NCBI GenBank assembly: GCA_029747585.1
Contig: JAPEVF010000187.1
Location: forward strand, 1 to 64,000
From: Pleurotus djamor
Lineage: Eukaryota; Basidiomycota; Agaricomycetes; Agaricales; Pleurotaceae
DNA: 64,000 nt
Direction of reading: 5' to 3'
The notes below the pieces were generated by a model, which was given only the letters and a program-made list of their open reading frames with translations, did no database searches and was not told the origin of the DNA. Made by a program: the position numbers and the translations under genes. Positions 4,934-26,702 of this stretch are shown piece by piece. Numbering within the stretch: the stretch's first letter is position 1; the number at the start of each line of letters is the position of its first letter.

Positions 4934-5944
4934 ATGCCCAACAACCATGGTAAGTCCCTCTCCACCCCCTTCAACCTGATGCCTGCGCTAATTACATCCT
5001 TATGAAGGTCTATCTCTCCTTACTCTGCTGTCGATGACTCCGGAGCAGGCTTTGGCCATGGCAGATATCTTCATCGCCGCCGCAAACGGTGCGGTGATCA
5101 TGATGCCATCAGCCCCACCCGATGCCCAACCCTCCGCGTCAGGTGCCTATGCTCGTGGGGATCATTCTCCCGTCTCCGATGCTATCAGTATTCCCGATTC
5201 GGACAGCGACGACGTCACGCCAGCGGAGAGAGCTGCTTTGGACTTCTTGTCGGCGACAGCGTTCTTATCATCCGACGAGGAGGATGGCACCCATTATCAT
5301 GAGGTGTCCGGCTCCAGCTCCCGCCGCAACAATGACCCGGCGGCGTCATCTTCATCTTCGGCCTTGGTTGTGTCTCCCCCTCCGTCTTACCACAGCATGA
5401 GTACAGCTGGATCCGTCGCTGCGACTACCGCCTCTCTATCAGCACTCGCGATTGCACCACAACCTGCCTTACCACCACCACCACCACCACCACCACCACC
5501 ACCACCAGCAGCGGCAGCTGTAGCGATCCCCGCTGCCGCTGTTCCCGTGCCAGCTGCCCCTGCTCCGGGGGTACCTGCTGCCTTGCTTGCTGCGGCTGCG
5601 TTACTGGGTCCCCCGCCACCACCAGCAGCACCAGCAGCCGCACCTGCGCCGTTCATCGTCCCTGTTGGATTTCAATTCCACACTCCTGCGGCACACGAGC
5701 CTGGTCCCTATTACGTGGTCATTCGAGGCCGCAACATCGGCGTCTTCTCTGGTTGGTGAGTACCATTTCTCCCTTTCTCGGTCTTTGGTCTCTGTTTGCT
5801 CACTTTTCTCACCGCAGGAACATGACGGCCCCGCTCGTCCTCCACGTCTCCGGCGCGTATCAGCATAAGGTCAGCTCGGTTGGGCAGGGCGTCAATGAGT
5901 TGTTGGCAGCTATTCAGGTTGGGGACGCGGTCATCATCCCGTGA
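4934..5944 (+). CDS. Low-complexity protein with C-terminal RNase H1-N/viroplasmin-like domain
   Basis: The best model joins 4934-4949, 5008-5755 and 5818-5944 (296 aa). Both introns have canonical ends (GTAAGT...GAAG and GTGAGT...CGCAG), and the second is needed to join the two halves of the C-terminal domain. Residues 1-150 are acidic and serine-rich. A run of about 15 prolines (near 5464-5508) and alanine/proline-rich sequence follow. Residues of about 240-296 match the pattern of the RNase H1 N-terminal hybrid-binding domain shared with viroplasmin: PYYVVIRGRNIGVFSGW, then VSGAYQHKVSSV. In that family the domain binds RNA-DNA hybrids or double-stranded RNA. No RNase H catalytic domain follows, so a nucleic-acid-binding role is inference. 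If the tiny first exon is wrong, translation starts at the ATG at 5034. Confidence 0.6.
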
Positions 5945-6936: not shown

Positions 6937-8766
6937 TTACAGCTTAGGCTGACACGGTAACCTCTCCCAAATAACCTTATTCGCCAGTCTCGAACGCGAA
7001 TACCCCCTCCTAGACACTCTATTCCCTCGTTCCAAAACAACAGCCTGCGAAACCTCCCCGACCCATCCGTATATCGCGATCACCGCGTCACGGTTCCATA
7101 TCTCCAAGTCCGTCACGGTGTGTTTCAGTTCGATCGTGGTGTCTGATTCTCTGCTGAGGAGACTATATGAGATTTTGGAGCGGCCATAAAGGTCGTTGGT
7201 GTTGAGCATAGGCTGTGAACGGCGCGTGAGCTTGATAGGTGGGGACGCAAGGTCGAAGATGTACATCATAACACGGATACCGTTGTTATTGAATGTGAAG
7301 GATTCATCAACGGGGGAGGATAAGTCGAAAATATCAAAATGAATCGGTTCATGCGCATATGCCCGTATATCAATACTCGTGGTGGGTACCTCATCCAACT
7401 GGTGGGGACTCGCCACCAACAGTGAGTTCCAACGACTTCGCGTGCCGGTCCATCGGAACAACGAACGCGAGGTGGTTTCGTGGAGACAAGTGATTTGGAG
7501 GCGGTAGAAAGCGCGTTCAGCACCTTCCCCGTAGATGATGGGGATGTGGATGTCGAGGAGGGAGAGGAGGGAGTATGCAATGTCTTCGGGGCGTGTTGTT
7601 GTGCGGTGTCGGAGGAATTGGGAGAGGAGGGGGGCTTGGTCGGGGTTTGGGGTGATTGGTGAGGAGAGGATGAGGTTGGGGGCCACTGTGGTGAGTGTTT
7701 GGGAGGGGGTGTGGGTTTGTGAGAGGCGTGTGTGGTAGATGGCTAGGGAAACGTACCCATTGCGGAGCGAGAAGCTTTCTCGATCTCGGGATTGCAGGTC
7801 CCAGTAATACCTGGATATATCAAATGTCGTCACGGAAATCCTTAATTCAGTAGAAGGCAAAAGGATGTCTTGTACTCACGATCGATGTCATACGGCGAAT
7901 CATTCCCAACGATCCGCGTCCACTGGGCAGTAAAGAACTGCATCTTCATCGGAGCAAGCAGCTCTTGTAGCGTCCACCCACGCCTGTACCACTCATCGTC
8001 TGCCAAATCCTCGATTTTGCTGGAACCACGGAGATACACGACACAAACATGAGCGTTCCGATACCACGTGAACATCGACCGAATGGATTCATCCACCTCG
8101 GGACCATTGGATTTATCAATGCACCCCGTATCAAACCAAACAAACCGACAGCCTTCCTCTCTCGCGGCTTTGAAGAACCCTTTGAGTTTCTCCACCGACT
8201 TCTTCTTCCCTTTTACCACAAAGGTTCCGGATTCCTCCACATGCATCATATCAGAAAAAAGGATCTCATCGTCACCCCACCGGTGTGACAAAATCGCATA
8301 TTTCCCTAATTCCCGGATATGTCGTTCGATGTTTGAGTAGTTGGAAAACGGCTCCCTTTGGGTGAGGCCGAGTGTTGGTAGACGATCGATGATCTGGGTG
8401 GCTATTGCGGAACGGGAGATAAGCTTGAGTTCGTGCGTGTCGAATAGCCGGATTGGACATTGGTGGGTGAATTCGGTGATGCGTTGTTGGGCTTGTTCGT
8501 ATTGCCTGTATGTCGTGGAGAAGTCAGCGACGGAGTATATGTCAGAGGGAGAGGTAGACGCACTCCTAATGATGGTGTTGGCGGGAAGGTTTGTTCATTG
8601 AGCGATCCAGAATGAACGGTTGGTGGCTTGACTACTTACCTTTGTGAGTTTCATAGATGCTGGTGTGCTAGGATTGCGAGAGCGTTTGCACACTACCACA
8701 GCTGATCAGGACCGTGCTTTGGTGGAAGGTGAGTAGCTCACGATCATTTTTGAACTTGCGATGCAT
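6937..8766 (-). CDS. HET-domain protein A, six exons, about 502 aa
   Basis: Proposed exons: 8766-8742, 8692-8640, 8565-8564 (2 nt), 8505-7880, 7810-7757 and 7685-6937. Every junction is GT...AG and the whole frame is open. The HET (heterokaryon incompatibility) domain spans residues of about 98-220: YAILSHRWGDDE, CRFVWFDTGCIDK, SIRSMFTWYRNAHVC, DDEWYRRGWTLQELLAP. The family mediates programmed cell death or growth arrest after fusion of unlike hyphae in ascomycetes; the role in mushrooms is inferred. Downstream comes TTTRPEDIAYSLLSLL and IHIPIIYGEGAERAF, the usual segment after the HET core. No NACHT, WD40 or other partner domain is present. The paralogue is HET gene B (24795-26702). The short exon 7810-7757 is the least certain part; the 2-nt exon is needed to keep QYEQAQQRITEF in frame. 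Confidence 0.8.
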
Positions 8767-9180: not shown

Positions 9181-11143
9181 GCATCTTTCCCTTCCTTCCT
9201 CCAAACCACCGCCATCGGCGCCAAACCACAACGACCATTTGAGCACTCTCCTCGTCACCAGCGGTAGATCTAGTTATATCATTCTAACCAACTTAGACCA
9301 CTCTATAACGCTGGCTCGGTTTTCTTCGTCTTCGCGCACGACTGCTAGACTGCTAGACTCCAAGTATATGCCTTTCTCTCCTCATCGACGGATGAGTGGG
9401 TGAGTGCCATTTGTGCGCGCATATACTCGGAACTGAAGTACTGACTGCTTTTCTAGTTTACGACGCGGACTCTTTCCTAGGTTGGATGTTAGAAGGGGTA
9501 ATACACTGAGGGTTTTTGGGAGCAGAGGCGACGCGTCATCGTGTGTGTTATGACGGTTTGGTACGTTCACCACCCGTGTATCCATGAGTGCTATTATACT
9601 GAGCTTGTATGCATGGTGACCTTCAGCTCACAACGTCCTGGGTGACGCAGGAGTCGCACCATCCCTTCGCGCGAATTTCGAGTGCTCAAACTGCCGTGTC
9701 AACCTCTCTAGGGCCTTTTTCCGAGTACTGGGCGTCATTCTTACCCGCTCACATCGTGTTCACGACGACGACACGCCTGAAGGCTTGGTGCCTTGCAGTT
9801 CAATGGACACATCCGAACGGAAAGGCTCTGGCGAGGCGGAGGAATCTGGGTCTGGTCATGAAGATGGTCGGAGAAGTAGAGGGTCGAACAAGCCACACCT
9901 TGCCGGAGGCGTCCCGGAACACGTTCATCAGCCTCAAGCGACTTGGGATACAATCACGCCTAATCCCCTCCGTCTTCCCCTCCCCTAGTTTTTGAGCTTT
10001 GCATCCAATACCAACCATCCCAGCGTACCTATCCCAGCCCGCTCCATCGACGTCCCACCAAGACAAAGCCGTACTTCAAGATACCCATCACGGACCGCGT
10101 ACTTCCTCCCTCAGAGTCTTCACCCCATCCATTCGACGCGTCACCCGTTCACGCTGGCAGCTTCAGCTTCGCCGACGTCATGGCTACGCTCCAAACTCGC
10201 CAATCCCGCACGCAAGTCTACTCGTCTTTCCTCCCTGAGAAGGCGTTCCTGGAGGAGTAAAACGCGGCTTGGAACTTACCTGGTTGTTTCCAATCATCCG
10301 TCCTCCTACCTCTACGTCAAGATCTTTCCTCTCCCTTCTCTTCTCAACTCTGCATCAGCCTCTTCCGATCTCCGAGCTCGTATCCGTAATCACCTAATGC
10401 CAACCCATCATTACCCCGATGACGATAGGCTCCCATGTTGAACACGAAGAAATCGAAGATGGGCTGGAGGCATCAGCGGCTCATAGCCCAGCTTGCGATT
10501 GATTGGTCGATGAACTGCAGGATTGGTTTTTTGGTGGGAAGGAAGGATAATGCGAAGGAGAGGAAGGGGATGCTGGATGAAGGGGCTTCGGTATTGATGA
10601 AGAAACGGAGTTTTGCTGGGCTCGATGAAGGAGAACGGGTCTTGGGGCTCTTGTGGTATCAAGCGATGGGTCCCTTCCCCCCGCATCATCTTCCAGCTGG
10701 TCTTCAAGCTTCATGACCAGCTCGAACAGAAATCCCCGCCACCACGACGCCCAGGTCGTCGCCCGCAGACTACGTTGATACGGCACCCGTTTTACCAATT
10801 TTCCAAGGGACGACCGCAAGCTTCTTCCCTCATCGACATCCCTCATCGTTTTACGGATCCGACGTGTCTCCGTCGTCAGGCTCAGACCTTTTGCTCGCCG
10901 CCCAGGTTCTACTTCGAATACGCGCCGGCGTATAGCTTGGGTTCGGTCAGCAACTACTTCCCCATGACACTTCTCGTCTGACGACCGTCATCTCCACAAC
11001 TTTGGGAGGCTGCGGTCTCGGGGTCTCGTCGCTCAAAGCTTGAATGTGGAACCTCGAACCTTGGTCACCCGGTCCTTGACTCTTGGCTCGTGGTGGGAAG
11101 ATATGGTGGGAAATGGAAACTGGAAACTGGAGGTCGAAGAGGT

Positions 11144-24794: not shown

Positions 24795-26702
24795 CTACTT
24801 GACATAAATCCATCGAGGTTGGATTCCGCTTTCCTTGATAGCCGTGGCACTGGGTAGCTCGTCCCAGCGAGCGGAAACTTTCTGAGAGAACTCGAACCGC
24901 GAGTAGCCAGCTCGAGAGGCTGAGTTTCCTCGCTTTAAGAACATAGCATACGAGACCTCCCCCACCCAGCCATATATCGCAAGGACTGCCTCTTGGTGAA
25001 AGGTATCTAGCGCTGCTTGATCCAACCAACGGTCTGATAACGAAATTTTCGTGTCCTCGCGTGCGCCAAGAATGCTGTAAGTGAGTTGGGAATACCCAAT
25101 TACCGTTTCTGCGTGGAACGTTGAGCTGATCGGTGGGCATGTGAGGTCGAAAATATACATCATTATTCGGATGCCATTGTTATTGAATGTGGAGGATATA
25201 TCCACAGGAGAAGAGAGATCGAAGATGTCGAAGGAGATGTGTTCTTGAGGGAACCAACACGGGGATTGTGCGAGTAGGGAGTTCCAACGGTTCGGGGACG
25301 CGTTCCAGTGACTGCACTGAAATAACGACCGTGATGTTGTCTCCTGTAAGCACGCGACTTGAAGGCGATAGAAGGCGCGCTCAGCGCCTTCACCGTATAC
25401 AATGGGGATGTGGATGTTGAGAAGAGATAGTAAGGAGTAGGCAATATCTTCGGGTCGAGTTGTTGTACGCCGGCTTGCGTACGAGAACACCTTTGGAGCA
25501 TGTTCGGGCCCTGGTTCAATAGTCTGAGATAGATCCAGGCTTGTTGTCCCTGTGTCCGCCAGAGTAGTGGAAGATGAAAATGATGGGATGAGACAGATTC
25601 GCGATGCGTTGTGATGGTGGTTTGCTTCGTACCAAAAGCCCATTCCATTTCCCCCTGGATGTCAGGGTGACATATCCGTTTTTCGCCTAGATTTACCGAT
25701 GTCAGACTGTAGAAATACCTGCAAGACGTCCTCCAGTATCTGCAAGTACGGTGTATACTTACGGTCAATATCATAACGCCATTCCGTTCCCGTAAGTCGA
25801 GTCCAACCTGGGCCAAAAAACTGCAGTCTCATTGGGGCAAGGAGCTCTTGTAGTGTCCATCCCCGTCGACACCATTCATCATCTGACAGATCATGCATCC
25901 TACAGGTATCCCGAAGGTAGACGATGCAAACGTGGGCATTTCGGTACCATGTAAACATTGACCGTATCGACTCATCAACCTCAGGGCCGTTGGACTTGTC
26001 GATGCATCCAGTATCAAACCAGACGAAGCGACACCCTTCGGCTTTTGATGCCGCAAAAAAACCATTGAGTTTCTCCTGGGCTTCGTGCTTACCCAAAACC
26101 ATCAAGGGGCCTTCCGAATGCAGGACGTCGGACAAAAGAACTTCGTTGTCAGACCATCGATGAGATAGAATAGCATATCTCGCCCGTTCTTGGAGGTATC
26201 CTTCAATTCCCAAAGGGGCCGAAAGGGTCGCGTCCATCTCATGGTCGAGATATGTTTTCCCGATAATGTGGTCTTTCATCGAAGATCGGGGGACCATTTT
26301 CATCTCCTGGAGGTCGAATAGTCGAAGTGGGCATTGTTGGATGAACGCGTTGACGTATGTTCGTACTTTTTCGCGTGCTCTACATCGACCTTCACGTCAG
26401 CNTTTTTTAGGACTCGGAGGGTATCGAAAGGTGACGTACGCCTAATGACAGAAGAGGTTTGCGGTCAGCTCGACCGAACCATCAACTCAAACTGATTCAA
26501 TCACTCACCTTGAAAGCCTGGAAAGTATGTCCAAGGACAGGATTTCAATACACATCAACCTGAGTCTACCACGGCAACGCGGGTACTTACAACGCGACGA
26601 TCATGTCTGACTGATGGCCGTGATAGAGGTAAGAACAGAGCATTAGTAACCAGTCAACCAGAGCTCACTCTGGGTCAGAGACACAATTGGGGTGAAGTTC
26701 AT
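24795..26702 (-). CDS. HET-domain protein B, seven exons, about 500 aa
   Basis: Proposed exons: 26702-26669, 26610-26591, 26517-26509, 26441-26440 (2 nt), 26379-25719, 25654-25633 and 25549-24795. All junctions are GT...AG. Intron 1 has a perfect TACTAAT branch site. The HET core reads YAILSHRWSDNE, CRFVWFDTGCIDK, SIRSMFTWYRNAHVC and DDEWCRRGWTLQELLAP, followed by TTTRPEDIAYSLLSLL and IHIPIVYGEGAERAF. It is a clear paralogue of HET gene A, with nearly the same length and the same unusual 2-nt exon. As for the family in general, a role in non-self recognition is likely but unproven here. The weakest part is the 22-nt exon near 25640 and the acceptor at 25550, chosen because they restore the conserved downstream frame. 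An N at 26402 lies in an intron. Confidence 0.75.

Follow-up and report, generated by a model that had tools for sequence, protein, structure and literature searches.

The HET-type gene A of Pleurotus djamor (minus strand; ONZ45_g7716, protein P0001) probably encodes its N-terminus in a short ATG exon, a 2-nt exon and a main exon, separated by two short introns, and the 2-nt exon appears to be old in the clade of the gene. We put the probability of this reading at roughly 0.8. Gene A is located in the 64,000-nt stretch of DNA that was analysed here (contig JAPEVF010000187.1, positions 1 to 64,000; the window). If the reading is correct, a 2-nt exon common to a clade of paralogs joins the small number of ultra-small exons known from fungi, and its length has been kept while its base content varies. 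The annotated N-termini of HET proteins in P. djamor would then deserve a second look.

Probable structure of the gene A N-terminus

On the minus strand, the 5′ region of gene A reads CTCACAAAG / GTAAGT...CATTAG / GA / GTGCGT...CATACAG / GCAATACGAACAA, and the sequence following the second intron continues from 8505 as GCAATACG (Table 1). The preliminary description had placed a 2-nt micro-exon here, with these intron ends and a CGCTGAC element in the second intron. The ends and the element are present as it gave them, the sequence, coordinates and frame fit, and the micro-exon is the best model for the gene, with additional support from the paralogs. The predicted mRNA junction is AAG-GAG-CAA. 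As the main exon contains no in-frame ATG before the HET start, translation should begin upstream of it. The reconstructed protein contains a HET domain (PF06985, 57.2 bits, cut-off 22.5) at residues 75-168, and the gene resembles the self/non-self (HET) genes of fungi; it may have a role in incompatibility or cell death. Its best protein match is ONZ45_g7716 of P. djamor, with 100% identity over 99% of the query.

Table 1 Exons and introns of the gene A model and the candidate 2-nt exon of gene B
Feature	Position	Strand	Description
Gene A exon 1	8640..8654	-	Coding from ATG, ATGAAACTCACAAAG (MKLTK); ends in phase 0
Gene A intron 1	8566..8639	-	74 nt, GTAAGT...CATTAG; donor 9.3, acceptor 4.4 (23-intron matrices)
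Gene A micro-exon GA	8564..8565	-	2 nt; completed to codon GAG by the G that opens exon 3
Gene A intron 2	8506..8563	-	58 nt, GTGCGT...CGCTGAC...CATACAG; acceptor 2.3; donor 7.7 from its six intron bases, 0.6 when the exon side is included
Gene A exon 3	7880..8505	-	Starts in phase 2; QYEQ...PIRLFD and first part of the HET domain
Gene A intron 3	7811..7879	-	69 nt, GTGAGT...ATCCAG; from annotated structure of P0001
Gene A exon 4	7757..7810	-	From annotated structure of P0001
Gene A intron 4	7686..7756	-	71 nt, GTACGT...CCACAG; from annotated structure of P0001
Gene A exon 5	6937..7685	-	Contains stop codon TAA
Gene B candidate 2-nt exon GC	26440..26441	-	CATTAG, GC, GTACGT; ambiguous

Splice sites were scored with donor and acceptor matrices built from 23 annotated introns of related genes, all located downstream of the HET start. 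These training introns are 41-184 nt long, with donor scores of 3.6-11.5 and acceptor scores of 2.1-11.2. The listing of gene A models allowed one or two GT-AG introns, each 40-130 nt long, and applied set score limits; it returned exactly one model, containing the 2-nt exon GA. This exon is flanked by scoring sites, CATTAG before and GTGCGT after it, the latter on the intron side only. As a concession, the intron 2 donor was judged on its six intron bases; with the exon side included, its score falls below the training minimum, and demanding the full donor score would leave no gene A model at all, the 2-nt model included. The earlier claim that this is the only way to keep the frame therefore holds as the sole model within the set limits, while the deposited annotation reads a different structure with a single 537-nt intron.

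We estimated how often such a model arises by chance by shuffling the upstream region 400 times with dinucleotides kept. A model of some kind was obtained in 300/400 shuffles, one with an exon of 5 nt or less in 43/400, and one with some 2-nt exon in 5/400, none of which (0/400) lay near the same place. Taken alone, gene A thus amounts to about one chance in eighty, which is modest evidence, suggestive and no more. The case for a 2-nt exon appears to be decided by the paralogs.

The AG-NN-GT pattern recurs in the gene A clade

HET-family genes are numerous in the 55.9-Mb P. djamor assembly, with at least 150 scored matches, counted by exon. The first HET exon of gene A as query gave 120 matches, around which 70 loci were fetched, 67 of them with a usable reference point. 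In the 155 nt before the HET start of these 67 loci we searched for the pattern [ACT]AG-N(k)-GT[AG]NG[TAC]. With k=2, 15 matches were found in 14 loci, against about 2.3 expected at the rate seen in 1388 control windows from these loci (0.034 per window). The pattern is also in excess for k=7 (12 loci) and less so for k=1 (7 loci). A zero-length recursive splice site, with AG directly followed by GT (k=0), had no match before the HET start in the 67 loci; in gene A such a site is ruled out by the two bases between AG and GT.

The k=2 matches are concentrated in the clade of gene A (14 members, support 100/99). The pattern is present in 11/14 members, its donor lying 76-110 nt ahead of the HET start, compared to 47/4426 control windows of 50 nt. 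Nominal binomial values are 7e-20 for 11/14 and 4e-16 for 9/12 after merging near-identical pairs; they are descriptive only, as the pattern was defined once the sequences had been seen and the paralogs share descent. The remaining k=2 loci, outside the clade, are L036, L043 and L064. A second landmark (SHRW at 20-140 residues) is absent in 22/67 loci, and the reference point of L032, at the start of the frame, is probably misplaced. Restricting the count to the other 45 loci leaves 13 matches in 12 loci, 11 of which are clade members.

The two bases themselves differ between the loci: GA in gene A (L009), GC in gene B (L010) and L021, GT in L012 and L017, AT in L013, CG in L014, AA in L015, TA in L019, and TT in L020 and L022. 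The 8 different dinucleotides in 11 loci suggest that the encoded residue is not under selection. Among these loci, the intron 1 acceptor scores within the training range in 8/11, the intron 2 donor with its exon side in 3/11 and the intron 2 acceptor in 9/11. The introns of gene A resemble those of eight other modelled loci mostly at the level of shuffled sequence (z -2.6 to 1.5), with the exception of intron 1 compared to L013 (z 3.4). A blastn comparison of gene A with 29 paralogs returned nothing upstream of the exon, the hits beginning at position 1526, inside the exon.

Reading frame and first exons across the clade

A first exon with an ATG and a phase 0 donor could be traced in nine loci (L009, L012, L013, L015, L017, L019, L020, L021 and L022). 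The frame is continuous in 9/9 when the two bases are included and shifts in 9/9 when they are skipped, partly by construction, as the search for first exons was set to phase 0 and the L019 donor (full score 0.8) was chosen manually. A check of all three phases at the nine donors gave an open ATG frame in phase 0 for 9/9 loci, in phase 1 for 1/9, and in phase 2, on which skipping would depend, for 3/9. Retention of intron 2 leads to a stop in 8/9; the exception is L013, where this intron would be 36 nt long and in frame, so that the two bases would read through into exon 3.

The first exons of L012, L015, L017 and L019 share the sequence MEFDE. Differences between the first exons of L012, L017 and L019 number 13, 8 and 2 at codon positions 3, 1 and 2, while those between L020, L021 and L022 (10, 10 and 8) have no codon pattern.

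Other structures can be read in part of the clade. At stricter limits, single-intron alternatives exist in L012, L014, L017, L020 and L022, and none were found in L009, L010, L013, L015, L019 and L021. The alternative of L020 and L022 is the structure used by the annotated protein P0005, L012 can also be read as open through both introns, and further in-frame readings were listed for L013 and, at relaxed limits, for L010. Looser limits add one alternative each in L015 and L019, ranked below the 2-nt model. The score of -0.9 for its last acceptor leaves L021 with no model at these limits. In L014, the 2-nt model requires a first exon that is doubtful. At fixed limits, some model with a 2-nt exon was obtained in 6 of the 14 clade loci (L009, L012, L014, L015, L017 and L019), with top rank in 4.

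Gene B and the history of the exon

Gene B is the second HET gene of the window (24795-26508), with 58% identity to the HET exon of gene A. Its candidate exon GC is ambiguous: the search for an in-frame first exon yielded none with an ordinary donor, the only one found having a donor that scores -4.4, and under relaxed limits one intron of 129 nt keeps the frame without GC. The 5′ part of the gene contains an N.

Within the clade, genes A and B form a branch with a support of only 91/60, and the other 12 members one with 96/81. Both branches bear the AG-NN-GT pattern, which is most simply explained by a 2-nt exon already present in the clade ancestor. The pattern is missing from three of the 14 members. 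In L011 a longer ATG exon runs into the donor, in L016 an AG stands in place of the donor GT, and L018 has no matching donor; in L016 and L018 the frame stays open, and with the donor missing the two bases continue into the next exon. All three look like escapes through the loss of one intron with the frame kept. L051, a related copy that is broken, also lacks the pattern over the stretch examined.

Alternative readings of the gene A 5′ region

Four other readings of gene A were weighed, which are not exclusive of each other. We consider it improbable that the deposited model is correct, with a start at 9215 and one 537-nt intron (9042-8506) to which both the ATG exon and GA would belong. P0001 is annotated in this way, with the donor GTCAGT and the same last acceptor as in the 2-nt model, but its intron is the longest among the introns mapped (the next being 269 nt) and lies well outside the 41-184 nt of the training set, and its 58 N-terminal residues are, by eye, unlike any other protein compared. 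The four annotated proteins that map exactly to modelled loci (P0001, P0002, P0005 and P0009) moreover have four different beginnings. None includes a 2-nt exon, as is expected of a program unable to model one. It is likewise quite unlikely that gene A is unexpressed or decaying and the AG-NN-GT pattern a relic. Some relatives would fit such a state: the sequence of gene B includes an N and offers no clear first exon, the donor is lost in L016 and L018, and L051 is broken. The frame of gene A, however, is open through all exons, its HET domain scores above the Pfam cut-off, and introns 3 and 4 are ordinary.

The remaining two readings concern the stwintron-like or sequential splicing that the preliminary description had put forward, of which removal in two steps agrees with the frame and donor splitting does not. 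In an acceptor-splitting stwintron, or tandem acceptor, the cut would fall after GAG and not after TAG, giving the product AAG-CAA, one residue shorter; this form could coexist with the main one. After removal of intron 2, gene A reads CATTAG-GAG-CAA, and either cut keeps the frame. Splicing usually prefers the first AG that follows the branch site, which speaks against the use of GAG in gene A, and bases able to form a second AG occur in only 2/11 pattern loci (L009 and L015), so that acceptor splitting cannot be the mode shared by the clade. We regard it as an unlikely variant of gene A. A donor-splitting stwintron that removes the whole 134 nt is hardly credible. By our own reading, removal of an internal intron starting at GTAGTC would restore an outer donor GTAAGA, but joining the outer borders without GA takes phase 0 to phase 2 and shifts the frame, and the sequence does not qualify as a stwintron of the donor type.

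Possible mechanism of inclusion

Sequential removal of two ordinary short introns would be the simplest mechanism for including the 2-nt exon. By the usual view, a short intron in fungi is recognised as a whole. With such intron definition, each of the two introns would be recognised by itself, and the exon between them would not have to be recognised at all. Because only two bases separate the intron 1 acceptor from the intron 2 donor, the two sites are probably not bound simultaneously. The introns would then leave one after the other, and either could go first. If intron 2 is removed first, two in-frame acceptors would arise in gene A, TAG/GAG and TAGGAG/ (cut at the slash), and a variant lacking the glutamate may be produced. 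We infer splicing and its order, like the reason why the exon has been retained, from the observed sequence and frame, the recurrence in paralogs and the variety of the two bases. The length of 2 nt would be kept because exon 1 ends in phase 0 and exon 3 begins in phase 2, so that loss of the two bases alone shifts the frame. With 11 loci, 8 dinucleotides and apparent losses on both sides, one genome would then offer natural variants for studying intron-defined splicing where only two bases separate an acceptor from a donor.

Relation to known small exons

Among the literature matches listed, none described a 2-nt exon in a fungus or micro-exons in HET genes of Pleurotus. The size class itself is not new, as exons of 2-5 nt are known in Arabidopsis, Drosophila and humans (PMC12940212); these are of the same size as the gene A exon and non-fungal. 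The nearest known case appears to be the 1-nt exon of Fusarium CYP621A, which was deduced from phase and homologs and is supported by 18 SRA reads (PMC12940212). As in gene A, the flanking phases do not fit each other, the arrangement is shared by homologs and missed by annotation, and two short introns lie side by side. The CYP621A exon differs in measuring 1 nt, in being found in orthologs across Fusarium species, and in placing a fixed base inside a conserved motif with RNA reads in support, whereas the gene A exon measures 2 nt, occurs in paralogs of one basidiomycete, varies in its two bases and is known from sequence. In plants, APC11 and VPS55 contain 1-nt microexons that RNA-seq and RT-PCR have verified (PMC8831610). 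These are similarly ultra-small, conserved and missing from annotations, and in VPS55 the N-terminus is affected; in contrast to these RNA-verified plant exons, that of gene A is fungal and deduced.

NACHT-ANK genes of Tuber melanosporum contain codon-sized (3-nt) microexons that are alternatively spliced (Iotti et al. 2012, cited in PMC10197012, PMC3689799 and PMC4986451). Here too, tiny exons follow one another in a fungal family associated with non-self recognition; they resemble the apparent 3-nt exons of L041, L050, L058 and L059 described below. They belong to another family and phylum, and at 3 nt they differ from the 2-nt exon of gene A, which is not frame-neutral. In stwintrons, two consecutive short introns are removed stepwise, with the internal intron splitting a splice element of the outer one (PMC5639578). 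Stepwise removal would be common to both, while gene A has two coding bases between two complete introns. A microexon switch was shown by experiment in Xlr2 of Trichoderma virens (PMC11121469). Like gene A, it involves a fungal micro-exon whose inclusion decides the protein, but in a different gene and as a regulated switch.

Apparent chains of tiny exons in a second HET clade

A second HET clade comprises L041 and L058 (contig C607), L050 (C1306) and L059 (C98), with support 99/95. All four loci contain AG/GT-flanked stretches of 3 nt at -162 to -164 and -216 to -229, and of 7 nt at -91 to -100. Apparent serial exons of 3, 6, 7 and 12 nt were observed 90-680 nt before the MPINV motif, in places with one codon per exon. 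In L041, L058 and L059 a chain of 3 - 27/33 - 12/6 - 41/35 - 6 - 3 - 3 - 3 - 7 nt is readable; it was first read by eye from the comparison of the loci and afterwards checked. The 27 introns deduced for these chains are all 49-74 nt long, and one open frame leads into the HET exon. Weak sites are two acceptors (-2.2 in L041 and -0.8 in L059) and one donor (0.5 in L059), and L058 has an N in one chain exon. The chain peptides of L041 and L058 are clearly alike (z 12.2, 0/1000 shuffles as good), those of L041 and L059 weakly so (z 3.1, 5/1000), and those of L058 and L059 have no likeness (z 0.8, 208/1000). A protein search with the L041 N-terminal chain (residues 1-75) gave one match among 15 candidates, P0029, which is the L041 copy itself; the search thus gave no confirmation of the chain from any other protein. 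Among sixteen proteins, mostly from metagenome sources, that were compared for N-terminal extensions, none helped. We consider the chain of tiny exons in L041, L058 and L059 a strong lead, not proven.

The small exons of both clades could together act as a splicing lock, in which the 5′ coding region of HET-type genes is cut into exons of 2, 3, 6, 7 and 12 nt and the death-related protein is made only if all of them are included in order. We consider this doubtful, though possible. The 2-nt form would then act as an all-or-nothing gate by frame, while the 3-nt chains would allow single-residue variants through skipping, as is reported of the Tuber NACHT-ANK genes. A gate on a death protein is speculation.

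Stretches of 7 nt flanked by AG and GT were also observed in L030 and L031, which belong to another clade, at a similar distance before the HET start; outside the L041 group, AG-N7-GT matches occur in these two loci, in L063, L070 and others. In L050, the region about 480-1583 nt before the motif contains, by eye, repeated segments like LEALFG and LDVG.FF..SE, suggesting a repetitive N-terminal region. A different repeat is located in the window at about 5400-5520, in overlapping open frames, and would read as polyhistidine, polythreonine or polyproline depending on the frame.
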